Assembly (NCBI GenBank): GCA_034687125.1
Contig: JAQGBZ010000330.1
Location: 1 to 64,000, forward strand
DNA: 64,000 nucleotides
Direction of reading: 5' to 3'
DNA from: Neelides folsomi
Lineage: Eukaryota; Arthropoda; Collembola; Neelipleona; Neelidae
Part shown: in pieces, positions 11,647-53,815 of the stretch
Numbering within the stretch: position 1 is the first letter of the stretch
Layout: each line of letters opens with the position of its first letter
Made by a program: the position numbers and the translations under genes
Notes under the pieces: model-generated
The model's input: the letters and a program-made list of their open reading frames with translations, nothing else
The model's database searches: none
What the model was told of the DNA's origin: nothing

Positions 11647-14320
11647 ATGCATCAAAATGTCAAGAAGAAAATTGATCATTCCAGACAATGCTCTGCGAAA
11701 ATCAAACGCGACTCCCCCGAAGGAGTGCTTATGGAAAAGCGCGGATTTACATTTGGACGCTGTTTGGGAGAAGGGCAGTTTGGCAAGGCATGAATAAAAC
11801 CCGCTGTAACTTTCTTAAATCATTTAAATCAAACATTAATTCGGATATTGTTTTAAAGGCATTAAACCATTGGCGTTAAATCAGGTCCTCTACGCTGAGA
11901 ATTATGTAACTGATCCGAAATCCCGTTCCAAGACACGTGTCCGACTCGCTTGCAAAATTGTTCTCAAGAAATTGCCCTAAGGACAAGAAGCATTCTTTAA
12001 GAAATCCTTCTCAAGAGAAATTTATATAATGAGCGTGTTGAAACATCCAAATGTGATCATGATCCACAGTATGTACGAAAGAACAGACAAATTTTACATT
12101 TTCATGCAATTTGCTGAAAATGGAGACATGGCCGAATACATTTTCAAAAATGGGTATATTCAAGAACAGAATTCCAGACCATGGATCACACAAATTCTCA
12201 AAGGTCGATCTTCAACTTTGAATTTAGAATTTCGTGCGAGATGAGTAACTGAAAATTTAAATTTATTAAAACAGATTTTATAATAAAAAGGTCTTCGGTA
12301 TCTCCATTCAATGAATATTGCTCATCGTGATCTCAAATGTGAAAATCTGCTCATTAGTCATAATAACACGATCAAAATCGGAGATTATGGATTTTCTCGG
12401 ATTTTCAAGATTGAAGATCCTTTGAGTGAAACTTTCTGTGGGTCGCTTTCTTATTCAGCTCCTGAAGTTCTGGGCCATGTAAAATATAACCCTTTCTTCA
12501 GCGACGTCTACTCATTTGGAGTCATCATCTTTTATATGCTGAATAAGAAATTTCCTTATAGTGGACGATCCATGTGGTCAACCACAGCTCTTTTGGAAGA
12601 ACAAAAAGCAATGGAACTTGAATATGACAATTTTGTATATTATTCATTTTTAACATTCATTTTAATACAGTTGAATTTAAATTATAGTTTAATAGTTTAA
12701 AATGGTAATTTAAAAACATTAATTGGGCTTTAATTAACTAAAAAGGTAAAGGATTTCATATCTGACAATGTGAAAAACACCATCAAAAGTGCAATGAAGT
12801 TTAATCCCGAAGATCGAGTCACACTTGAAGACATTTGGATGAATCCATGGATCCAAAAGACCTCAAATACAGATATCGGGAATTCTTTAATTTCTGCAAC
12901 ATCTCGTACACTCCTTTCCTCTCCACCTGTCATCCTTGTAGACGTGGACAACTTGCACTCAAGATCTGTTGATATAGACATTGACCTTGGTTTTGACCGA
13001 GAGGAGAATGCAGGAGATGGAGAAAGCCAACGATATTCCCACGTGGTTCAGCCAACCCATCCCCAAACTCCAGTCAATGTCAATACCAAAGAACTTCAGA
13101 AACAGTCACAAAGGCCTCCAAAAGAATTAAAATTCACAGTGCCTACACATATCGTAGCAAAAGAACCAACCCAGGCCAAAGACAATTTGTTGGTTCCACA
13201 GAGAGCATTAATTGATGCACGGAGAAATAGTCCCAACATCCAAGCGACAGCTCAGAAAGAGACAGGCCTTTTGGTGCCCAAAATTGATTCTAGAAGAAAT
13301 AGCCCAAACCTCCCTTCACCCAACAAAGAGAATCTCGTGGTTCAAAAAGATCTCAAGGATTCACGTAGGAACAGCCCAAACATTCAAGCTAATGTGGGAC
13401 CAAACAAAGAGCAGAATCTTCAGAAAATTCTCAATAATTCTCGGAGAACAAGTCCGAATTTGATTCAAGTGCCGCCAAAGAAAAATGAAAGTCTTTTAGC
13501 TCCTGAAGTTGCGAATGATTCGCGGAGAAATAGTCCAAACCCGACAACGCTAACCAAAGAGACAAGTCTCGTACAACAGAAAACTCCCAATGATTCAAGG
13601 AGAAATAGCCCGAACACGATTCAAGCAACACCAAATAAAGAAGAAAGTCTTTTAATTCCTAGGCCTAATAATGATTCAAGGAGAAATAGCCCAAATCCGA
13701 TTTCCGTAACACCCAACAAGGAGATGAGTCTTTTAAAACAGGCAACTCTGAACGATTCAAGGAGAAACAGTCCGAATCCGACGCAATTGCCAAATAAAGA
13801 GATGAGTCTTTTAGAACAGAAAACTATTAATGGCTCTACCCAACCAAATAAAGATAATGTCTTGAATCAATATGAGGCTAATGATTCGCGGAGAAACAGT
13901 CCGACTCTACAGCTAAAAGAGATTGCAAATGTTCCGAATCAAAAAGTTAATGATTCAAGGAGGAATAGTCCGAATTTCCCAAAAATCAAATTAAAGGAAG
14001 CTGGACAAAAAGTTGTGAATGATTCGCGTAGGAATAGTCCTCAGCTCCCGGAACCTTCGACACAAAAAGGGAAGGAGAACGTTAATCAAAACGGTGTGAA
14101 TGATTCGCGGAGAAACAGTCCGAAAATTGCCGTTCCGGCTGGCAAAAATAAAGCACCAAATAATGCTAATCAGAAAGGTGGCATTGATTCGCGAAGAAAT
14201 AGTCCCACCATAGCGCCCCAACCAACAGCAAATAAAGAGAAGGATATTGAAAAAATTGGTCCCAATGATGCACGTAAAAACAATCCGAACAACCCAACTG
14301 AGACAAATCCCACATCCTAA
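11647..14320 (+). CDS. Divergent TSSK-like Ser/Thr kinase with RRNSP-repeat tail; internal stop
   Basis: Protein kinase closest in pattern to the testis-specific (TSSK) family. Exons: 11647-11787, 11885-12203, 12291-12634, 12746-14320 (793 codons). The glycine loop is GEGQFGK and the VAIK-type lysine is in LACKIV. The catalytic loop is IAHRDLKCENLL, as in TSSKs. The DFG motif reads DYG (GDYGFSRI) and the APE motif is SYSAPEVL. The last exon adds about 480 low-complexity residues with 14 spaced copies of DSRRNSP. Two oddities: intron 1 needs a GC donor (AAG/GCATGA), and exon 2 has an in-frame TAA at 11978-11980 between KKLP and GQEAFFKK. All other exons stay open and in phase. It may be a recently damaged gene, a nonsense allele or a sequence error. 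Confidence 0.7.
13213..14295 (+). repeat. Coding array of 14 DSRRNSP units
   Basis: Within the last exon of the kinase, a core DSRRNSP followed by 15-35 variable residues rich in N, K, Q and P recurs 14 times. Thirteen copies keep RR(N/T)SP; the last reads DARKNNP. The core is conserved between units while linkers drift, as expected if the core is selected. RRxS is a basophilic-kinase site and SP a proline-directed site, so each unit is a potential multi-kinase phosphosite. Confidence 0.9.
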
Positions 14321-14387: not shown

Positions 14388-15740
14388 TTAATTAATGTTA
14401 TTAATAAAAACGTGAGAAGGATAACAACTGACATCGAATACAACATGGTCTATATGAGGGGCATAGGACTTGACTCGGAATATCTCTATCAGTTTGACAT
14501 TCCATTTCTCTCCGTACATTTCTCTTAAAATTAAATCCAGTTTCTTCATTACCTTTAGACTAAATGCTATATACTGTTTTGGAATGGTAGTTAGGTATTG
14601 GAAATTATTGAAATACCCTGATTCTTGTATGAAATCGAGGTCAATAACTTCGCTCGGGTCCTTGCAATTGACTAACTCATGAATGTGCAAAACTCCTCCA
14701 CTGCGTTTGAGAACTGAGCACGCGAGATCGTAACTTCCTTCTGACGTCGGTAAAATTCCAAGATTAATGTGATCTCCAATGTGCTTCGGACAATTCTACA
14801 ATAAGCATTAAATAAGTTAGGTTATTGACATTTTAATATTTCTGCAGAAAAAGATAGTATTCAATCTATTCAATCAAAATGAGAATTTTATCAATATACT
14901 TTATTATCTCCGTGTATAATGGAACATCTCTTTGAAACATTGTTAAGATCCAAATTCCTTGTAAGAGCTTCAACAGCGTTGGGATTCCACTCACATGCAA
15001 TCACCTTTTCTGCCTATTCAAAAATTCAATTTGTAAAGTAAGTGATAAAATTGGTATTAATCATTTTAATATTATTTATTTAGACCTTACGTACCTTCGT
15101 ATAGATAAGATATGACAAAGTAAAATAGCCAATTCCAGCAAAGAGATCAACAACAATTTTCCCAATTAAATTCATCTTCGAAATTCTGAATTTTTCAGTC
15201 AAATTCCCTGAACTGAACATACATTTCGTCACGTTCCAAGTATACCTAATTCCATTAAAAGATATATTAATTAACTTTGATAATAAACAAAAATTTTAAA
15301 ATATTTACAACGATGTAAAAACTCACAAAATATTGTTTTCCTTTTTAAGGGCCCAAGGATCAGACCCAAAGAGAAGTTGAACGCGAGGTGAGCGAAATTC
15401 GTCATTTTTAGTTGAGCCCAATTTCCTCCCCAATTTCTCGCATTTTAATATTCCACAGACATCCTTCCACAATTGGTCTATAAGTGATTTAGATCAATTT
15501 AGATCTAATATGTATAAGAGTTGATTAAATGTTGAAATTGAACTAAAAGCATAAATGTTTAAATAATTAACCTGAGCAATTGTCCCAAAACTGTGAAGTA
15601 AAGGACGTTTGTGGGAACAAGACGAGATTTCCGTGTTTCTCCCATTTTCGAGGAAATTGGTCTACCAATGCTTGCCCATTGTTTCCTTCTTCAACACAAT
15701 ATTTTTTCAATGTAATTCGAAGGGCCTCTGTCAATTTCAT
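14388..15740 (-). CDS. TYW2: tRNA wybutosine-synthesizing protein 2 (TYW2/TRMT12)
   Basis: Transfers the alpha-amino-alpha-carboxypropyl group from S-adenosylmethionine in wybutosine synthesis on tRNA-Phe. Exons on the minus strand: 15740-15572, 15477-15327, 15245-15095, 15013-14900, 14795-14388, giving 330 residues. The N-terminal part has FPRKWEKHGNLVLFP. SAM-binding motif I is VVDLFAGIGYFTLSYL, followed by VIACEWNPNAVEAL. Later come SIIHGDN, NLGILPTSEGSY, GGVLHIHELVNC and the C-terminal KSYAPHIDHVVFDVSC. GILPTS rather than the NLP(A/P) motif of TRM5, and the CEWNP/SYAPH(I/V)DH blocks, point to TYW2 rather than TRM5. It faces the BTB gene across 395 bp. Confidence 0.93.
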
Positions 15741-16135
15741 TTTAATTCATAATTTAAATTTTAATCCACACGTCAGTCATTCAGTTAAAGGGAAATAATT
15801 TTATAAATAAATGGAGAGGCGCAGAAGTTGGTAAATGAAGGTCGCGGGAGAGTGAGAAGGAAACTCGAAAAATAGGTCTTTATTTTCAGGAAGCAGGTCC
15901 AGTTACATTCCATTCTCCGCACGAGAGAGATATCTATTTTATTAATTTCCGTTATACTTTTATTTACTTTTAACTATTATTTAACAATGCCTGTATTTGA
16001 AAGCCATTTAATTATTTTCATTCCCTGTCTAGCTATATTTTAGGTTCTTATTTTTTACTCTTATAATTTATTTAGCAATAACTTATATGAACAACTCGCC
16101 ATTGGGCTATTCCATTACTCCAAACATAATAATAA
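15741..16135. promoter_or_regulatory. Shared head-to-head promoter interval
   Basis: This 395 bp lies between the start codons of TYW2 (minus) and the BTB gene (plus). It should hold both promoters and both 5' UTRs. No specific core element can be assigned by eye. Confidence 0.5.
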
Positions 16136-22202: not shown

Positions 22203-25200
22203 TTAAAATTCGGACATATTAAAACTCCTCAGTTGGTCTCGAAGTTCTTGAATGTAAGAAGGCAGATCAATTCTATTAATTCGATCTACTTGAAGCTTTT
22301 GTCGCTCAACGTTCTAAAAAAATAAAAAAATATCAATTACGATCAATTATGTAAACACCAATGTTTAAACATTGTAACAATTAAAGCTTACATTGTAAGT
22401 TTCCATTTTTGTCCTGAATTGAGCTTGGAAGCTTTCAAAGAGAATCGTAGGCTTGATAAATTCATTTAACCCTTCAGAATCATCACTGTAAAGGTCGGCA
22501 AGTTCTCGTGCTGTTTTTCCCAATAAAGACTCGGCAATGTCATTGAAGCAAGTCGCAAAACGCCCATCGGTAGCATCAACAAATTTAATCTGATATAACA
22601 ATTTTTGTTATTCATTTACATAATTTTTAATGTAATTTCTTACGTCGAGAATTAATCTCCAATTGAATGCAGAAATGTCCTTTCGGCATTTCTCACATCT
22701 GTATTTATCCTCTTCCAGCTCAATTAACTTTTTATTGCAGTCAGGACATCCCTTGTACAATGGGTTTTTATCCTTTTCCCAACCCACTGCGTAAACTTTG
22801 TTAATAAATTTTCTCTCTCCGCCTTTCACTTCATCAAACAATTTCCATTCGATTGCTACAAATAATTAGTTATATTTAACAGAAGGTTATTAAAGTTTGT
22901 CTTTTAATATTTACTAGATCATATTTTTTAGCTTACGGCCGACCGAAGGTGCATCTGAAGTAAAGTTGAACGAAAATGAATTTGGAATGGTCGAATACCA
23001 CTTTTTCAGTTTATCTCCATCCGCAATTTTAGCATCAACCTATAAATAAAATATTTATTTTATTTACTTTTTTGGGCATTTTAAATCTCCTATAAAAAAA
23101 TTTTTCGATTTGCTTACTTCAAGAAATGTCTGTGAAGAAATTGAGAGATTCTTTTTATTATTAAATTCTCCAACTTTCCCCTTTCGAATTGAAATAAGAG
23201 AACCTTGAGTGCCCTTAAAATTCTTCGCCTCCGCATCCCACAATGTAACATTAATCTATTGAAACAATTATTAAACCAATTAATAATTCAATAAATTCCT
23301 AAACTCATTTAATTGCATTAAGTCCTAATCAGGGCAAAATTATGCAAGTGTAGATTCAATTTTACCTCGGTATTTGACGGATCAACAATTGTGAAGTCTC
23401 TTTTAGTTATTTCCTTTCCAGAATATCTACTTGTTACATTCGTCAAGTCAAATATCCGATGGCAAATTCCTTTCACATCTACAAATTGATAATGAATAAA
23501 TAAATTTTTTAAATGCTATTTTTAATATTAATTACCAATTAAGGAATCTTTAGGCATAGAAGTAATAGATACAATCGTTGGAACATAATTGTGCACAATT
23601 GGCGGCGGAAGCTCTGCTGAAGGTGAAGGAAGGTGAATTGTGGTGTGTCCTTTAACTTCAATTTCATATTGCGATTTATCGTGTTTAAAAGCAGGTTTGA
23701 CATCATAATATTTTAACTCGTAAACTTCATCGACCTACATAATTAAAATAAGATAAGCAATAAATACTCTCGATCAGAGTTTACAAGTGTAATTTAATTG
23801 TTTAAATGCTACATAAGTACAAGGTGGGCCTCATGTCGATGCGTATTTTTAACGGATTAAAACTTTAAGACGGCTAATCATAAAAAACAATTAAGATGTG
23901 CAATACATGGGGAATACATTATTTTATTATGCAGCAAAATATTAGCTCAAATGGTTAAGCCTCAAATAAACGGCAGTTAATTTTCTTCGATAAAATCGCC
24001 GTTACCACGCAAAATGCATGAAAGAAAAGTTTGGTTCGAATTGCATAGGAAGCGGTGGAGCCTTTTCATGGCCTCCTCACTCGTCTGATTTGACTCCCCT
24101 CGACTACTTCCTTTGGGGTCATGTCAAAAACTATGTCAACACAGAAACCTTCGACTCTGGACGGATTTAAAAATGCCATCAACCAAGTATTCGGGAAAAG
24201 TTGCTGTGTAAAAGAATGTGAGGCCGTCGAAGGTAAGTTATAGAAGTGAATCGGGATAAATTGACGAGTTAAGGTATTTATTTATATACATGGATGTATA
24301 AGGCATGTATTGTCGTGGGAAAGGAAGGAGTTGAAATCCCACATTTTTGTTATAGCGTTAATTAGAATTCGCAAATTGTAAATTTCTCAATTTACCCTAA
24401 TATCTTTATTTAAATTACTTACCTACTTTATTATATCTATGTAAATTTTTAAGTAATTTAAATATTCTTTATGTTAAATATAAATGTTTTGAATTATTGA
24501 ATGTTTAAAACTAATTTTCTTTGTCGTCATCATCGCTGCTTTCTGAATCTTCTGAAGTATCGCTTTCATCCTTATCAAATTGAATGATGATTGGGTCAAT
24601 AGCCGAAAAGATAGCCTCATCAATTAAACGGTCCCTTTCCCACATCGTATTTTCATATTTGATAGCGTGATTGGCGCAATTTTTCCAAAGTTCAGGCGTT
24701 ACACTAGCGATTCCTTTCTTGCTCAGCTCTAAGATTCCTTGAATATTATTCCCCTTGTTGTTCTTAGAAATAAAGCCTTTGACGAACGACCAAATGAGCT
24801 CAATTGGGTTGAATTCGCAATGAGCGACAGGAAGCCACAAAATTTTTATTTCTTTTCCACAATCTTCAATGGCCTCGTCTACAAGAAACTTCGGGGAAAC
24901 AGGCTTTTCTTTGGAAAGTTTAATAAGCGAAATTTTGGTGAGTTCGTGAAATGAATTGACATGATCTGGAAGTGTGATTTTATGTTCAATATTCCAATTT
25001 ATGATGTTTTCTTTTAACCAGAAAATTTTTGGCATAATGGATGACGTAACCTTGTAAAAGGTTTAAACAATCACTAATTTTAATTTTTTGTTTTATATAA
25101 ACAATTTCTCAATATTAGATTTTAATAAAAAATTAAAATACCCTTTTTTGTGATATGGAGCTTGATCCAATACAAGAACCGAACGATTTGGGACGATCTT

Positions 25201-40684: not shown

Positions 40685-43296
40685 TTATGCGATTTTTTTC
40701 TTAAACATTGTGGTAAAGAATTGGATCAATCCCCTTTCAAATTTCAATACAGCGAACATGTTCAAACCAAACATAATAAGTCCTAAAGCCAAATGCGGGA
40801 ATCGGCCAAGACCAAGAAGTATCTATTAAAAAGATAAATGTTCAAATTTTAATTCGGCAAGAACGTACAACGTAATAAATCATTTTTAATTCTAGTTGAG
40901 AATAGAATTTACTTTTGATAGAATGATAAGTGTGAATGCAGAAACGAAAGAAGCAATGATTTCTCTTGGCGGAATCCAATATTCAAAAGGTGTAAAATCA
41001 CACGAGATGAAAACTTTTCTTATCAGGTACATACTGCAAGAATTTTATAATTTAATTAATGGTTCATTAAAAATTTTAATGAAAGAGTTGGCAGAATCAA
41101 GATTTTAAAAAAATTACCTTTGCAAAACTCGCAACCCCATGTTCAATGAATTGGCCAAGTAAAATCCAACACTCCCGAACATCTTTGTAAAGACGTAGGA
41201 AGCGAATAAAAAGATAGCTGAGAAAATCACAAGTCTTTTGTTGAATCTATCAACAATAAAAAGGTCAAACGGCATTAAATTACAATCACAATAAATATTC
41301 CAAATTGTTAAATAAATCGGTTTTAATTTTTACTTGTCCATTTCAGTCTGTGTCATTGCAGCAAAGGTAAAAGTTTCGGTGACCCCGTTGAGTGCCATAA
41401 TGAGAATGTATGCGCAATTGGCTTGAAGAAGAAGCGTCGCTGGTCCTTGTTCTGATAAATTTGGTCCTCCATAAAAGAAAAGGACAGTATTGCTGTAGGG
41501 AATTCCATAAACGATCCCAATGAAACCAATAATTAAAATCAGTCTCACAAGGTTCCCAAGAACCATTCCAGAGTCTTTTGCTAATTTCTGTAAACAAAAT
41601 TAAAATAACTTTACTTACGACCGTTTACAACTCAAAAAACAAGAGTTTGGGAAAAGTTGGGGCATTATAGCACTTTATAATAGCTCAATCTAACGGAATT
41701 GAAAATAACTTGTTGATTTTTAATTCAGCCACTAGATAACCAATTATCAATGTACCCCAATATGCCATTTGAACAAAAATATGTGTAAAAGATACGAATG
41801 GAAACAAAATGGGATTAAAAACGTTGTTTAGGTCAAGGTATTTGTTCAGTACGTTTTCTCGATGACTGAATGTTGCTTTTCTTTGAAGTGTCTGTGCAAA
41901 ATAGAAGTATGCGCTTTCTTCAATAGGAAGAAATATAAAACGTGCCGCAATGGAGCCCAAATTGGAAACGAGATCATAAACGCCTTGCTCTTCAAATGTC
42001 AAGAGATCAAAAACAGTCATCATGTAACGTTCACCTTCAGTCAATAACTGTTTTAAAATTCCCTGTTTGAAGAAGGCATATGCCAATGAACCACTCTCTT
42101 TGGGAAACTCAATTCGCTGTAAACAAGAGAAAAAATATAATAATATTTATAAACTGTAATTAATTTTGATTTGCTATTAATTAAGTGCTATTATGATAAA
42201 ATATAATTCTATTAAATATACCGTATTAAACGAAGGCACAAAATCTTTAATTGAGTCGAATGGCAATAAATGATTCTTTTTGGAGAGAATATAAGCGAAG
42301 AATCCATAATAAATTAATAGCACGAAAATAACTCCAGCGAGAGTTCCAAGACCATATGCGACAATTACGTGTTGTGGATAAAATAAGACTCCAACGCAGA
42401 GGAATAACGCACGAATTGCAATTAGTGAAGAATCTGCGGCGATCTAAATAAAATAAAATTAATTGGTTTAATTGTTAATTATTTGTAGCATAAAATTAAA
42501 AAAATTACTCTTAATTTATAATAAAGAAAATATTGGCCGATGATATATGGTGTTTCTGCCAATGATTCAATGACGGATGAGATGCAAATGGCAATGACTC
42601 CAAAGGAATATTCAAATTCCATCTTCTCTTCAGGTTGGCTTAAAGCATTAATCCAAATGTACCCAAGAACCAGAGACCATAAAATGGTCAGTGGAATTCT
42701 AAAAAAATCATTCAACACTTGTAATACCTAAACATATCTCATCAATGCATAATAGTAAAACAAATGAATACAAAAATGATTCAAAGACTTTTAATCTTAC
42801 GAAAGCCAAATGAGGTTGATTGCTTCTTTCCATGAATGCGAAGATTCTTTTCTTAACACAGCTCTTCTGAAAGGCTCCCGACTCAAAAAGGCAATTGATG
42901 AGTAAAGAAGTGCAAGACGAACATTGCAAATTCCCAGAAATCCATGCGAAACATGTCGAAGTATAAAAGCGTTGATTCCAAATGTAAAGAATCGAGTGAA
43001 AACCTTATTATAAAAGAATCCGTATATTATAAATTATAATAATAAAAATATAACAATAATTCTAACAGTAATTCAGGTTCGAAAATTCTCCATTTTGAAT
43101 CATGTAACTTTACCTGAAAAATCATATTATAAGATGCTGATCGAATGCTCGTTGATAAAATGGTGTCATTGTCTAAAGGTAAATTTCGTGTTTTGGGAGT
43201 TTTAAGTCGTTTGGGTGATCCTGTGATTTCTCCTTCATCGGTTGATGTGTCGGAACTCTCCTCTAAATTCTTTTCTATTATTTTAATTAAATTCAT
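40685..43296 (-). CDS. RFT1: RFT1, dolichol-linked oligosaccharide translocation protein
   Basis: Multi-pass ER membrane protein needed for N-glycan precursor assembly. Minus-strand exons: 43296-43114, 43003-42801, 42698-42509, 42443-42222, 42116-41823, 41587-41334, 41246-41118, 41018-40913, 40822-40685, giving 572 residues with all phases consistent. Diagnostic blocks: FGINAFILRHVSHGFLGICN then VRLALLYSSIAFLSREPFRR; LIWLSIPLTILWSLVLGYIW; FKQGILKQLLTEGERYMMTV; QGVYDLVSNLGSIAARFIFL and PIEESAYFYFAQ; NGVTETFTFAAMTQTEMDKF; GSVGFYLANSLNMGLRVLQR. The N-terminus is longer than in human RFT1 and is Ser/Thr/Lys-rich (SSDTSTDEGEITGSPKRLK). An in-frame ATG at 43392 could extend it by 32 residues. Intron 5 holds a small MITE-like repeat. 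Confidence 0.95.
41657..41760. repeat. MITE-like GGGGCATTATAGCAC repeat, copy in RFT1 intron
   Basis: TTGGGGCATTATAGCACTTT at 41657, followed by ATAATAGCTCAATCTAA, closely matches the left arm of the element at 46242-46371. The right boundary is weaker (TACCCCAA near 41753-41760). Confidence 0.55.
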
Positions 43297-45566: not shown

Positions 45567-47770
45567 TTATACAAAACATTTAGAGTGATAAAGTTGGAAT
45601 TCTTCGATGATGAGAAAAACAAGTCTTGACAAATGATCATCAGAGGGGAAAACTGTTTCATCGCCGGTTCCGACCATGTACATTTTTCCATTGTAAGTCA
45701 CCGTTGTAATCATTAGAGCTAATATAAATTCATTCAACGTAATTAAATGAGTTTTTAAATTGTTCATCAGGATATGTCCTTATTGTTAATTAAATTTTTG
45801 TATATTAATTTACTAATTCTGAATTTACTCACGACAAGTTCCTGGAATAAGCGAAGCATCAATATTCAAGGTAATTAATTTCTTGCCAAAAAATTCAATT
45901 GGTCTTTTAGGTCCTGGAAAACTCGAAATGTTGAAAGTCGCTACTCGATTTGCGAATATCTTTTTGAGCAATGAGGGGAATATCCCTCCAAGAAGTGGAA
46001 TACTGATAAAAGTCAACATTGGAACAGGCGAATTCTTCAATGATTTTAATTTATGGTTGATCTTTTTCAGCCGCTTTTCTTCATTTTCTTCTCCAAGTGG
46101 AATTCTTATAAAAATAATTGTACTGAAAGATAAACAGCTATTATCTTTTGAAACAATTTTATTACAAATAAAGTGAGAAATAAAAATAAAATACCAATAA
46201 AACATTTGAACTTTGCATTTGTAAAGTTTATTTTTTAAAAACTGGGGCATTATAGCACTTTTTGTGACTCAATCTATCAACAAGAAAGAAAACAATAAGA
46301 AAGTACAACTAAATTAAGTTGTTTTTATTCCCATAAGATTGAGCTACTGAACAGTGCTGCAATGCCCCAAGAAAATAAAAACGATTTCCCTTTTGGTTCT
46401 GATTTCTCTTTAATAAAAACATGTACTTATAATGTTAAATGAGAATAGAAGGAATTTCCAAAATCTCTTGAAACTTACAAGTGATTCCTTAATTTGTTAT
46501 CAGGATGACCCGGGAAAGGTAATGGCGTTCCTAAAATATATTAACTACTTCATTAGTTTGAAAAATCTTTGATAAATACGAGTGATCATTTGAATTGAAT
46601 TTACCCATATGACAATATTGTGGGATGATGGTTCCAGTTTCATCCATAAACTTCCTAATTCCTCCTGTCACTGCCGAAGAAACCAGACTCGTAAGGGAAA
46701 CTCCGTTGCTTTGAGCGGTTTCTTTAAGCGTACCCAAATCCACTGGTTTTGAAATGCACTTGTGAGGAATTTTTGAATATTCTTTCATTGGTGAATGCCA
46801 GGCGTTGAAATCGTATCCTTCAACTGTTTGATAAATCCCTTCGTAGAGGCCGAAAAATAAAAGTCGAAACCAAAAAATGATTTTTGAAAAAATTGAAACT
46901 TTTGGTCCAGTTCCTGTTGGGATTAAATTCGTTTTTTCTCTACATAAATTGATTACAACTTTTGCAAAAGAATAGCCATCTCCTATGAAAAATCATTTTG
47001 AAAGAATTAGAATAAAATTTAAAATGCTTTTAATCGTAAATGTATCGACACATCGGTTTTATTTACCCATTGTATGATGAACTCTCCAAAAATAATATGA
47101 AAATTCATCATCTTTGGTTTTGCTATCCCAAGGACTTGAAATCTCTTCTGAATAATTCTTCACAATGACAATTTCCCATGGACTTCTATCTCGAACGAAA
47201 GGTTTCAAAATGAGTTCTTTGTGTATTCTAAGAATCTCTTTTGGACAAACATCTCCTCCTCGAGTATTGTCATAATAATTGATGTGATTCTTAATATCAA
47301 AATTTTTATCCCAAGCCCAATAAGCAAATCCACACCAGTAAGTAAGCTTTTGGCGAAACTCAGGGTAAATGTAATTCCCGTTTGCATGTTTCAAATTTAG
47401 TAATTTCTCCTCGATGATTTTTCTTGCATCTTCGACCTCAACGTCGCCAGCTAGAATTCCGCTGCTCATCAATGTCGCTTGTGGCTTGTGATATAAATCG
47501 TCAGCAGCAATGATATTGCTCCTTGTACTAATTACCAGAAAAGGTGTTTAAACAAAAGTTATAATTGGATATGAATTACCTGAGCATCTTACCGAGATCT
47601 TTCCTAATGATTGGACTCACTTTGAACACCACGAACCGGAAGAGATGGATCGGAGCGAAGAAAAGGAGGAGGACAAAGGGAGAAATGAGAATTGTGCAAA
47701 AGGAGAGGAAAATCGCAAATAATTTGAAACTTAATTTACGACAGTAATACTTGAACCGAATTCGGGACAT
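45567..47770 (-). CDS. WS/DGAT-type O-acyltransferase, copy A
   Basis: Bifunctional wax ester synthase/diacylglycerol acyltransferase (WSD) family enzyme, joining acyl-CoA to long-chain alcohols or diacylglycerol. Minus-strand exons: 47770-47580, 47527-47067, 46982-46605, 46530-46479, 46122-45833, 45718-45567, giving 507 residues. It starts with a membrane segment (FKLFAIFLSFCTILISPFVL). The acyltransferase motif HHxxxDG is HHTMGDG and is split by an intron after HHTMG. C-terminal blocks: SLTSLVSSAVTGGIRKFMDE, GTPLPFPGHPDNKLRNH, RIPLGEENEEKRLKKI, FPGPKRPIEFFGKKL, then a LMITTVTYNGKMYMVGTGD region. It lies directly downstream of copy B in the same orientation, a tandem duplicate. Intron 4 holds a MITE-like repeat. 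Confidence 0.88.
46242..46371. repeat. MITE-like element in acyltransferase A intron
   Basis: The left end reads CTGGGGCATTATAGCACTTT and later ACTCAATCTAT. The right end, reverse complemented, reads TTGGGGCATTGCAGCACTGT and later GCTCAATCTTAT. About 130 bp, no coding capacity. A relative lies at 41657-41760. Confidence 0.7.
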
Positions 47771-49323: not shown

Positions 49324-51531
49324 TCAAACAGCAAAGGTTGCGTGCATGGAGAGGAATTCCTGTGTGATTGAGTTGAGAAGACTCGACGCTTCTGTTTCAG
49401 TTGGAAAGAACCGAATATCACCAGTACACGACATGTAAAGATTACCAGCGTAGGTCACTGTTGTGAATACTAATGCTGAAAGTTAAATATGAAAATAAAA
49501 TAGAATTAAAATAAAATAAAGATAAACTCACTTATTTCTGAAAAACGAATCTAATCGATTTTTGTTAACTGTTTAATTATTTAAATTTTAATATTAATAT
49601 TTTACGGCTGCTTCCAGGAATAAATGAAACATCTATGTAGAGAGTTGTGAGCTTTAATCCAAAGAGCGTTAAAGGACGATTGGGTCCTGGAACTTTTAAA
49701 TGATTTTTATTAGATTTTAGATAACAAATTAAAATATGATTGTTGGTTGAAAATGTAATTGCTTGTTAATTCATTACAGGAAGTCATATTGAGTGTTGAA
49801 ACTCTATTTTCAAACACGTATTTAATCCAACTAGGAAAAAGTCCACCTAGAAAAGGAATAGCGAGAAAAACAAAAACAGGAGCTGGGGAATCTTTCAAAT
49901 GTTGAAATCTTTCTTCAATCTTCTTTAATCTTTTCTCCATTGAAGCTCCTCGCATTTTAATTCTTAAAAAGGCTGCTGAACTATTGAAACACAAAAATCA
50001 ACCCTAACCGTTTAAAGGTTAAATTAATTAAATTAAATTAATCAAATTAATGAAGTTTGGAGTTTTTTTACTAATAGTTGCGAAGTTTATCATCAGGATG
50101 ATTGGGAAACGGAAATGGCATTGCTGTATAAATATATGAATTTATTTAAATCAAGGTTGATACATTAAATATTTGCAATATTAATAAAAAGTACCACAGT
50201 GCATAATTGAGGGAAGATTGACGTTTTTTTGTTCCATGTATCTTTTGACACCTCCGGCCATTCCTGCAAGAATCACTGAAGAAAGTCCTACTTTAAGCTC
50301 TTTGGCGACTTCTTTCAATTTCTCCAGTGAAATTGGAGCAGCAAGTGCTTTTGAAGCGTCGCCTGAATGAGTTTTTAATGGAGAATGCCAAGCATTGAAA
50401 TCAAAGGCTTCGATCGTTTGATAGATTTCACTATAGACAGAAGTAAATACGAATTTAAGCCAATAAAGACAACGGGAAGTTTCAACTTCATTATTTTCTT
50501 TCCCAGGAGTTGAGATGAGATCTTTAGATTCTCCACACAATTTGATGCAAACCTTTTTCATTCATTGTCAATTAATTTGAATTAACTAATGACCTTAGGA
50601 TTAATTAATTTTTATTTATCTCACTTTTGCAAAACTGTACCCTGTAGAATATTTGTTTTGTCAAATGTTGAATCGATCAGAATGTGATTATAAAAGTGAT
50701 AAAAAAATTAATAAATTTTAATAAATTTTAATATTTAATTTTAATAAAAAATATTTAATCTTAATAAAAATGGCAATTGACCGTCTCCGAGTGTGTGATG
50801 AACCTACAAAATTTAAAATAATTAGTAAAAATATACCAAATCATTTTTAGTTTTCAAACCTTCCACAAAAAAACGGATTTTCTTGACTCGCCGTTCTCTT
50901 CAGTTTCATCTCGATCTTTCTCATTTTGTGAATTGTTGTCAAGATCGTTACGTGTATTTGAATGTGCTAATCCTGCATCATAATTACGCACGATTAAAAG
51001 TTCCCATAAAGCTTTTTCCTTTGAAAACGGTTTAAGCATAAAATCAGCGTGAACTTTGTTCAATTCAGATTTGGAAACTTTTTCTTTCCCGTCATTGTAA
51101 TAAGTGACATGATAAGAAATGTCAAAGTTTGGATCTGATTTCCAAAAGTAAAATCCCCACCATTTGTATAAATATTGTCGGAATTCGGGATAAATCAATT
51201 CCCCTGATTCTCCCTTCACTGTGATGATTTTCTCCCATATTGTTTTTTGAGCTTCGTTCAAATCAACATCACCTTCTAAAATGCCAGTTGCCAGAAGAGA
51301 AGCCCGCGGTCTTTTAAATAATTGGTCCCCAGTCATTACACTACTCCTGGCACTTAACATTTTCCCTAAATCTTTCCTAAAAACTGGGGCCAATTTAAAA
51401 AGAATAAAACGGAAAAGATAAATTGGAGATAAAAGAACGAGCAAAAATGGAACAGAACAAACAAACAAAAGAGACAACAAAAGAGAAATAAATTTCAAAA
51501 CAAATAATCTTAAGAATTTCTTCAAATTCAT
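49324..51531 (-). CDS. WS/DGAT-type O-acyltransferase, copy B
   Basis: Tandem paralogue of copy A, 520 residues. Minus-strand exons: 51531-50860, 50803-50782, 50641-50625, 50552-50195, 50123-50072, 49980-49778, 49692-49606, 49475-49324. The N-terminal membrane segment is LKFISLLLSLLFVCSVPFLL, then YLFRFILFKLAPVFRKDLGK, which aligns with copy A. The catalytic motif HHTLGDG is encoded by two micro-exons of 22 and 17 nt. Later blocks, VGLSSVILAGMAGGVKRYME, AMPFPFPNHPDDKLRNYY, FPGPNRPLTLFGLKLTTLYI and FTTVTYAGNLYMSCTGDI, correspond one to one with copy A. A polar insert (NTRNDLDNNSQNEKDRDETE) precedes the motif. Two introns of copy A (after LGKML and inside HHTMG) are absent or moved. Confidence 0.88.
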
Positions 51532-53815
51532 TTTTACTTCTGATTAAAATTGCTAATTAATTCAAAAATGAATTCTTCATTTAAAATCACTTTTAAGTAA
51601 ACTCATTAGGTAAAATTTTAAATTTTAAAATTAAAATATTATAAATCTTTTTTTGCTTAATCTGATTTAATTTAGATTTAGATTTCAATAAAAATAAAAA
51701 AGAATGGAGTAGAAAGTGTAATCGAAAGCGACTGCAACTGCTGGAAACTTAATTAAATTAAAGAGAAGTCGGTGAGGTTGATTTTCATACAAAATTCCCA
51801 TCATTTTTCCATAGGTAGCTGTGAGAATGAATTCGTTAAAAAGTGAATTGGGAAATTTCTCAATTGGCTCTTAAACTCTTAATGAAAATTGAAGGTGGTG
51901 GAAGTTTTAATTGAAAGGATGAATTAAATACACGAGATGAACCCAATGTTTGTAGTCGTGAGAAGGAGGAAATTCCTTCCTTTGTTCCTCCTTTTTTAAA
52001 CTTTTTTTATTAATTACAATTCCACTAGTGTGCATATAATCTACATTTTTCAGATACATACATCAATATATCAAATGTGTATAAATGAGAATGATAATTC
52101 GCGAAGAGGAATTGTAAATTTGCCCCTCACGTGAATTTATTCACGCTTCGTTAACCTTTTCTTATCACTCATCTTATCCAAAGCAATCGTCTTAATTTAT
52201 TCATTTAACTCCTTTTAGTCACGATTCACGACCTTTAATGACTTAAAAGCGGTAGTGTTTATATGCGTAATACTAAAATTTAATCAAGTTCATCATTACT
52301 CTAAACAGATGTGAACCTTTTTCATTAAATTGTACTGTAATTAAATTATCCTGACCTTTATAATAATGAAATTATTTATTCTGTGTGAGAATAAATATAA
52401 GATTTTGTTTTTTCACAAACTATAAACCTTAATTGTTTAATCAAACATAGTATTTATTTCCATTAACCATACTGGCACATATACCTATTTTACCTATATG
52501 TAATATAGTGAATCAAAACACTATACTAATTTTATAATATTAATGAAACGTATGAATGTAATGTATCAACGGATGCGAAAAGCTTAATTCAAATTATAAT
52601 GTTGAAAACAATCAAATATTTGCTATCAATTAATATTAAAAATGTATGAAATCAATAAGCGAAGAATTTTATCTCATAATTAGTTAGCGAAATGAAATTG
52701 AAATTGAAATTGGGTGATTTTTTAGAATATTTTTTAATTATGTTACGGATATTAATTGAAGCTCACAAAAAGCACTGAAGCACATTACATAAAGTACATA
52801 AGTAAAATATATTCAAATCAGATACTCTGACTCTTGTTATAGACAAGTTTAAATATAACATTATTGTCATAATACAAATAATCTCAATATTTCATAGTTG
52901 TATATTTAAAAAATAGTTTTAAAACATAAATAAAATACTATTAACATAACACGTATCAAATATTGTAAGTATTGTGATACGATTCAGGCAGTCTCTTTTT
53001 ACTAAATATCCAAACACATTATGAGCCTAATAAACTTTAAAAGTATTTACACAGACGTTCATTGTGACAGAAAAAATAATTTTCTCATTTTAAATAAAAT
53101 ATTTTTAAGTATTTTAGTACATCACAATTAAAATTGCATTTTTTCTTTTGTCCTTAACACATTTAAATCTATTTAAATTTAATTTGATTCTTATTCTTGT
53201 AAATTCAACTATAGCATTATCTATATTACAAATATATTTACGACTACATTCATCAATGACAAAATGAAATCCTGAGTATAAAATGAACTTAATATTTTAT
53301 AAACATTCAAAGGATTCAAAAAAAGGAAAGGGAGAAGTAGAGAAAATTACTATATAAAATTAAACAAATTACAACCCAACAGGAACGTCATAAAACTTAT
53401 TATAAACAAAGCCTCTTAACCCACAATTTTAAATATTCCCTAATATTTTAAATTTACACGGTTATTTATAAATATCAAAATGATCAACCGTCTTTTGGTG
53501 AATAATCGTATTTAATTGTATTTATGATCACAGGTACATTTTACATTTAAAAAATTTAAGCACAAATGACCAAGATTCATATATAAAAGTTCAAATTGAT
53601 AAAAATTATTATTAGTTAAATATAGAGAATGTAAATTCTCATATTATTGTTAGTTAAAATAAATTCGAATTATGTATGAATTGAAATTTTCTTCATTGTA
53701 AAGACTAATATTGATAATACAAAATATTTATTTAATATATTTTATATGTATTAAAAATACGTGCTTATTGAAGAATCAGTCTAATTTGATATTTAAATAT
53801 ATAAATGATAATTCG
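51532..53815. other. Intergenic, acyltransferase B to ELOVL
   Basis: 2.3 kb, very AT-rich, with no open frame that looks coding and no matched long repeat. The left end is the upstream region of acyltransferase B; the right end the 3' side of ELOVL. Confidence 0.6.

Follow-up and report, generated by a model that had tools for sequence, protein, structure and literature searches.

A putative TSSK-like kinase gene of Neelides folsomi encodes a long array of conserved DSRRNSP cores and has an interrupted reading frame

A kinase gene in a 64,000-nucleotide stretch of the Neelides folsomi genome (the window) encodes a catalytic domain followed by a 486-residue tail, in which near-copies of the heptapeptide DSRRNSP recur under strong purifying selection. 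The best explanation, to which we assign a probability of about 0.5, is a fast-evolving paralogue of TSSK-like kinases with a tail that would act, now or until very recently, as a multisite platform for proline-directed phosphorylation. An in-frame stop codon in exon 2 interrupts the gene as assembled and bears on whether it is alive.

Results

Architecture of the kinase gene and its surroundings

The window is part of a 70 kb contig in an assembly of 75.1 Mb and 840 contigs. The kinase gene lies on the forward strand and, from our reading of the sequence, comprises four exons separated by introns of 97, 87 and 111 bases. Exon 1 (11647..11787) supplies the N-terminus and the glycine loop GEGQFGK and ends in a GC rather than a GT donor (AAG/GCATGA, the slash marking the exon border). 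Exon 2 (11885..12203; 106 codons) encodes the remaining N-lobe, including the lysine of LACKIV and the glutamate of SREI, and contains an in-frame TAA at codon 32 (11978..11980). Exon 3 (12291..12634) encodes the catalytic loop HRDLKCEN, DYG, the activation loop SETFCGS and APE; the region 12287-12640 is matched by Pfam Pkinase (E 2.2e-30, 106 bits). Exon 4 (12746..14320) holds the end of the kinase C-lobe, up to WIQK, and the entire tail. Its acceptor (...AAAAAG/GTAAAG) and a frame open up to the TAA at 14318-14320 confirm the borders that a first-pass annotation, made from the sequence alone, had given to this exon. No Pfam family matched exon 4, and Rfam at gathering thresholds gave no match in the window. 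The catalytic motifs GEGQFG, LACK, SREI, HRDLKCEN, DYG and APE are all present by reading. The same annotation described a kinase domain followed by a tail; both are indeed encoded, but it overlooked the GC donor and the TAA in exon 2 that breaks the frame.

A convergent gene on the reverse strand lies just downstream (14388-15750) and resembles a tRNA wybutosine methyltransferase (TYW2/TRMT12); its open frame 14388-14795 had no Pfam match. Elsewhere in the window, all on the reverse strand, an open frame at 24514-25062 shows a weak DDE transposase match (PF13358; E 2.7e-4, short of the curated cut-off) and is perhaps a transposon remnant, an exon of an Rft-1 gene occupies 41688-42146 (PF04506, E 8.4e-31), and two open frames at 47059-47547 and 50854-51543 resemble each other by eye. 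Neither of these two matched a Pfam family; they may be exons of a wax-ester or diacylglycerol acyltransferase. Genome-wide, six-fold TTAGG runs occur in 4 contigs, with 0 matches for the reversed control pattern, which suggests an arthropod.

Relationship to TSSK-like kinases

The genome contains at least three further TSSK-like kinases, on contigs C3, C148 and C321 (loci L005, L007 and L011, respectively). Outside the gene itself, the genome matches that rank highest by E-value are C3 (52% over 97 residues), C74 (39% over 128) and C148 (49% over 76), and identity over the aligned parts is 44% for C3, 42% for C148, 38% for C321 and 36% for TSSK6. The C3 paralogue shares three intron positions and phases with the kinase gene (by eye), including an intron 1 donor that is GT at the same place and in the same phase as the GC donor here. 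It also shares the WIQ-SNT junction at the end of the domain, after which its open frame stops about 30 residues later; that of the C148 paralogue stops soon after the kinase domain. Neither carries an array after the domain, their tails being read from open frames only.

Comparison with the sequences of solved structures gave 109.9 bits for MARK3 and 98 bits for TSSK6 with the kinase gene. TSSK6 is the best match among solved structures for both C148 and C321, and for the latter the sole one at 1e-45, whereas C3 scored 188.2 with TSSK6 vs 186.1 with MARK2 as a 232 aa query and 192.6 with MARK3 vs 188.5 with TSSK6 as a 271 aa query. In a seven-row tree, obtained by removing four long-branched rows from an eleven-row tree, the gene joins C3 and C148 with support of 96/99; the fork separating TSSK6 and the MARKs from the rest is weak (64/68). 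The eleven-row tree, which carries long-branch warnings, has a fork supported at 90/99; the gene falls on its TSSK6 side, as do C74 and a CDK-like row. The branch of the gene in the seven-row tree measures 1.89 vs 0.47 and 0.50 for the paralogues, a roughly fourfold excess that again comes with a long-branch warning and would also be consistent with relaxed constraint on the kinase portion.

The catalytic loop HRDLKC[DE]N is a mark of TSSKs, the MARK counterpart being HRDLKAEN. HRDLKCEN is present in the kinase gene, C3, C148, C321 and TSSK6, vs HRDLKAEN in MARK2/3, but the loop is not TSSK-exclusive, given HRDLKCDN in the otherwise distant kinase L014 and HRDIKCEN in the kinase L006. Together with RE[ILV] in helix alpha-C, HRDLKCEN is common to the gene, TSSK6 and the TSSK-like paralogues; the gene differs from working members of the family, such as TSSK6 and Drosophila dTSSK (CG14305), among other things in that its reading frame is not intact as assembled. 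The TSSK-like label of the first-pass annotation is supported in part: the gene joins two paralogues, one of them with TSSK6 as its best match, but for the gene itself MARK3 scores slightly higher. As part of the best explanation, and at the same roughly even odds, the gene would be a fast-evolving paralogue of the TSSK-like kinases.

An array of 14 cores in the tail

The array extends from the first core to the last on the forward strand (13214..14287) and accounts for 368 of the tail's 486 residues. The first-pass annotation had counted 14 DSRRNSP units; a loose core pattern recovers 14, of which 11 are exact and three are the variants DARRNSP, NSRRTSP and DARKNNP. Cores follow one another at 23-28 residues, with a single exception of 43 between units 8 and 9, where the long spacer (13775..13882, forward strand) holds linker-like sequence without a core, part of which seems to be a unit that has lost its core. 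The core serine is fixed in 13/14 units, the proline in 14/14 and the two arginines in 14/14 and 13/14, and conserved KE and QK positions are found inside the linkers. The array holds 13 RRxSP sites. It has a net charge of +26, only 2 aromatic residues in 368, and is rich in Asn and Pro.

Exact DSRRNSP appeared in 0/2000 shuffles of the array and the 60 residues preceding it. A degenerate core pattern found 16 places genome-wide, 11 of them in the array and 5 as scattered singles, whereas the reversed control gave 4, and the 75 Mb genome yielded no second array. A single scan each of prokaryote contigs and of viral contigs, where none was expected, found no array either. At a score of at least 50, TRF detected no DNA-level repeat at the array, indicating that the units are old. 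The tail, which is probably disordered, most likely arose in the last exon when a unit of about 27 residues was duplicated in tandem.

Strong purifying selection on the core

Nei-Gojobori counts compared every pair among the 14 units of this one gene, with linkers represented by the 20 columns that have residues in 8 or more units. The core gave pS 0.73 and pN 0.066 (pN/pS 0.09, or 0.056 after dropping the last unit), in contrast to pS 0.67 and pN 0.48 (pN/pS 0.71) in the linkers; synonymous sites are near saturation in both (pS ~0.7). In the neighbouring units 5-8, picked by eye, the core shows 0 amino-acid changes at a linker ratio of 0.46. These values are to be read with the caveat that units were located by their core, which biases towards apparent core conservation. 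We also simulated divergence from a common ancestral core at pS 0.65-0.76, assuming a star tree, and scored runs that kept at least 11/14 exact cores. Such runs numbered 15/150 and 4/150 at omega 0.05 and 1/150 and 0/150 at omega 0.1, and none occurred at omega of at least 0.2 with pS of at least 0.65. The pN/pS contrast and the simulations together establish that the core is held by strong purifying selection, as the first-pass annotation had proposed; a core evolving as fast as the linkers, which it named as grounds for abandoning the idea, is not what the pN/pS values reveal. The tail thus carries recurrent S/T-P sites that are better conserved than the linkers, as a multisite proline-directed phospho-array would.

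The similarity of the linkers in neighbouring units 6-8 could be taken to mean that the array is a functionless low-complexity repeat, its units alike through recent duplication or gene conversion. This is highly improbable, as core synonymous sites differ by ~0.73 per site between units, meaning that the cores were not recently copied, and TRF sees no tandem repeat in the DNA.

Candidate kinases for the core

TSSKs fall within the CAMK group. In our view, the P+1 loop of the kinase encoded here, CGSLSYSAPE, is not of the proline-directed type when set against CDK2 and PKA. All of the RR-x-S/T sites in the tail (13/13) have Pro at +1, a residue that AGC and CAMK kinases exceptionally disfavour at this position, according to PMC7809594, citing Zhu et al. 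2005. Because of this disfavour, RRNSP would be a poor basophilic or self site, and it is unlikely that basophilic kinases or the kinase itself mark the units, as had been suggested from the motif. A proline-directed kinase able to accept an Arg at -3 would fit better. DYRK-type kinases have substrate sites of the form R-x-x-S-P, which resemble the core in their Arg at -3 as well as their Pro at +1, a likeness of sequence context. This DYRK motif was not found in the part of PMC6611643 that was available, and the literature searched offered nothing useful on a TSSK substrate consensus.

The interrupted reading frame

The TAA at 11978-11980 has recognisable kinase sequence on both sides and sits in a stretch of exon 2 that is two residues longer than in the paralogues. 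Because of this stop, the assembled sequence offers no frame that runs from the start codon through an intact catalytic domain into the tail. No further stop interrupts the 712 codons downstream of it in exons 2-4, although neutral divergence would be expected to add about 105 stops per unit; any loss of the gene is therefore very recent and, if the gene is dead, occurred at less than about 0.03 substitutions per site (by arithmetic, 3/105). As a control, 24 of 25 exon matches to the CCT chaperonin (2415 codons) were inspected: 9/24 contained stops, each of them by reading intronic or at the edge of an exon, and interior stops numbered 0, from which interior stops seem unusual in this assembly. 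Among proteasome subunit matches, 10/26 hold stops, counted irrespective of stop position.

These observations bear on three accounts of the stop. The sequenced copy may be dead, as a recent pseudogene or a segregating null allele whose cores record past selection. We regard this as possible, if short of even odds: the interior TAA flanked by kinase sequence, the GC donor, the scarcity of interior stops in the CCT control, the lack of a second gene copy found in the genome and the long tree branch all point this way, whereas the open frame past the stop and the retention of the remaining catalytic residues do not, and GC donors occur in functional genes too. The stop might instead be an assembly or sequencing error in a gene that is intact in the animal, an account that accords with the uninterrupted codons of exons 2-4 and with the strong past selection on the core, but that we consider slightly less likely than the first, given that no CCT match had an interior exon stop and that the GC donor would add another oddity to the gene. 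Finally, splicing inside exon 2 could skip the stop. Removal of any of 13 in-frame GT...AG candidates, 42-150 bases long, would drop the TAA and keep the frame open, among them a 96-base candidate (11906-12001) with a GTAACT donor and a size like that of the gene's introns. However, 12/13 delete the catalytic lysine, the only one that keeps it (42 bases) is very short and cuts the stretch right after the lysine, and what they would excise aligns to stretches that are coding in the paralogues. Such rescue is improbable, and its product would probably be a pseudokinase or scaffold that carries the array and has lost activity. Only if the TAA reflects an assembly error, or a null allele carried by the sample, does an intact kinase with its platform exist today; failing that, the gene is either a pseudogene of very young age or a kinase that is rescued by splicing and probably inactive.

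Discussion

The phospho-platform reading, given above at about 0.5, implies the following mechanism. The last exon would have gained its long, disordered tail through tandem duplication of the ~27-residue unit, and the tail would work, or would have worked until very recently, as a multisite phosphorylation platform in which each DSRRNSP core offers a single Ser-Pro site preceded by an arginine at -3. We infer from the sequence context that a separate proline-directed kinase, DYRK- or CDK-like, rather than the kinase itself, would mark these sites, and that the effect may be cumulative, exerted through charge or multivalent readers. Filling of the sites would lower the charge of the tail from ~+26 towards zero, as 13 phosphates at ~-2 each roughly cancel the +26 of the array (arithmetic). 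Extending this, and more speculatively, the 13-site RRxSP tail may be a counter that is loaded stepwise by the second, proline-directed kinase and, in passing from basic to near neutral, switches partner or place in sperm formation, the stop being an error or a null allele; we consider this version unlikely.

The main functional rival to the phospho-platform is a binding module, in which the basic, Pro/Asn-rich tail with its arginine pairs would hold a microtubule or another partner by avidity. A net charge of +26 and the paucity of aromatic residues are consistent with it, as are the TSSK6 chains in PDB entries 8iyj and 8otz, which we take to be sperm doublet-microtubule structures, and the conserved KE and QK linker positions suggest more than a phospho-site. 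The core Ser and Pro are nevertheless as fixed as the arginines, beyond the needs of a purely basic patch, and we think a binding module rather unlikely.

The repeat array of proline-directed phosphosites in the C-terminal domain of RNA polymerase II is a known system of comparable design. Like the array here, it consists of tandem, probably disordered Ser-Pro units whose core is kept as copies multiply; it differs in that the present units are ~27 residues long, place an arginine pair before the site and are attached to a kinase. Within the TSSK family, the domain of dTSSK is followed by 11 residues, compared with the 486-residue repeat tail here, and according to PMC10164148 loss of the C-terminal 11 residues leads to male sterility, so that even a short, poorly conserved tail can matter. 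The portion of PMC12551868 available contained nothing on TSSK tails, the literature searched, with partial coverage and few subscription papers, yielded no TSSK with such a repeat tail, and RRNSP, DSRRNSP and SRRNSP had no literature match as words. The tail is unusual for a TSSK-like kinase.

If the gene is alive, it would represent a kinase with a built-in tail of repeated phospho-sites and a natural test case for the origin and selective upkeep of multisite arrays amid linker drift. If it is dead, it would exemplify the very young loss of a kinase paralogue. Alive or dead, its intragenic repeats allow selection on a short motif to be measured without other species.
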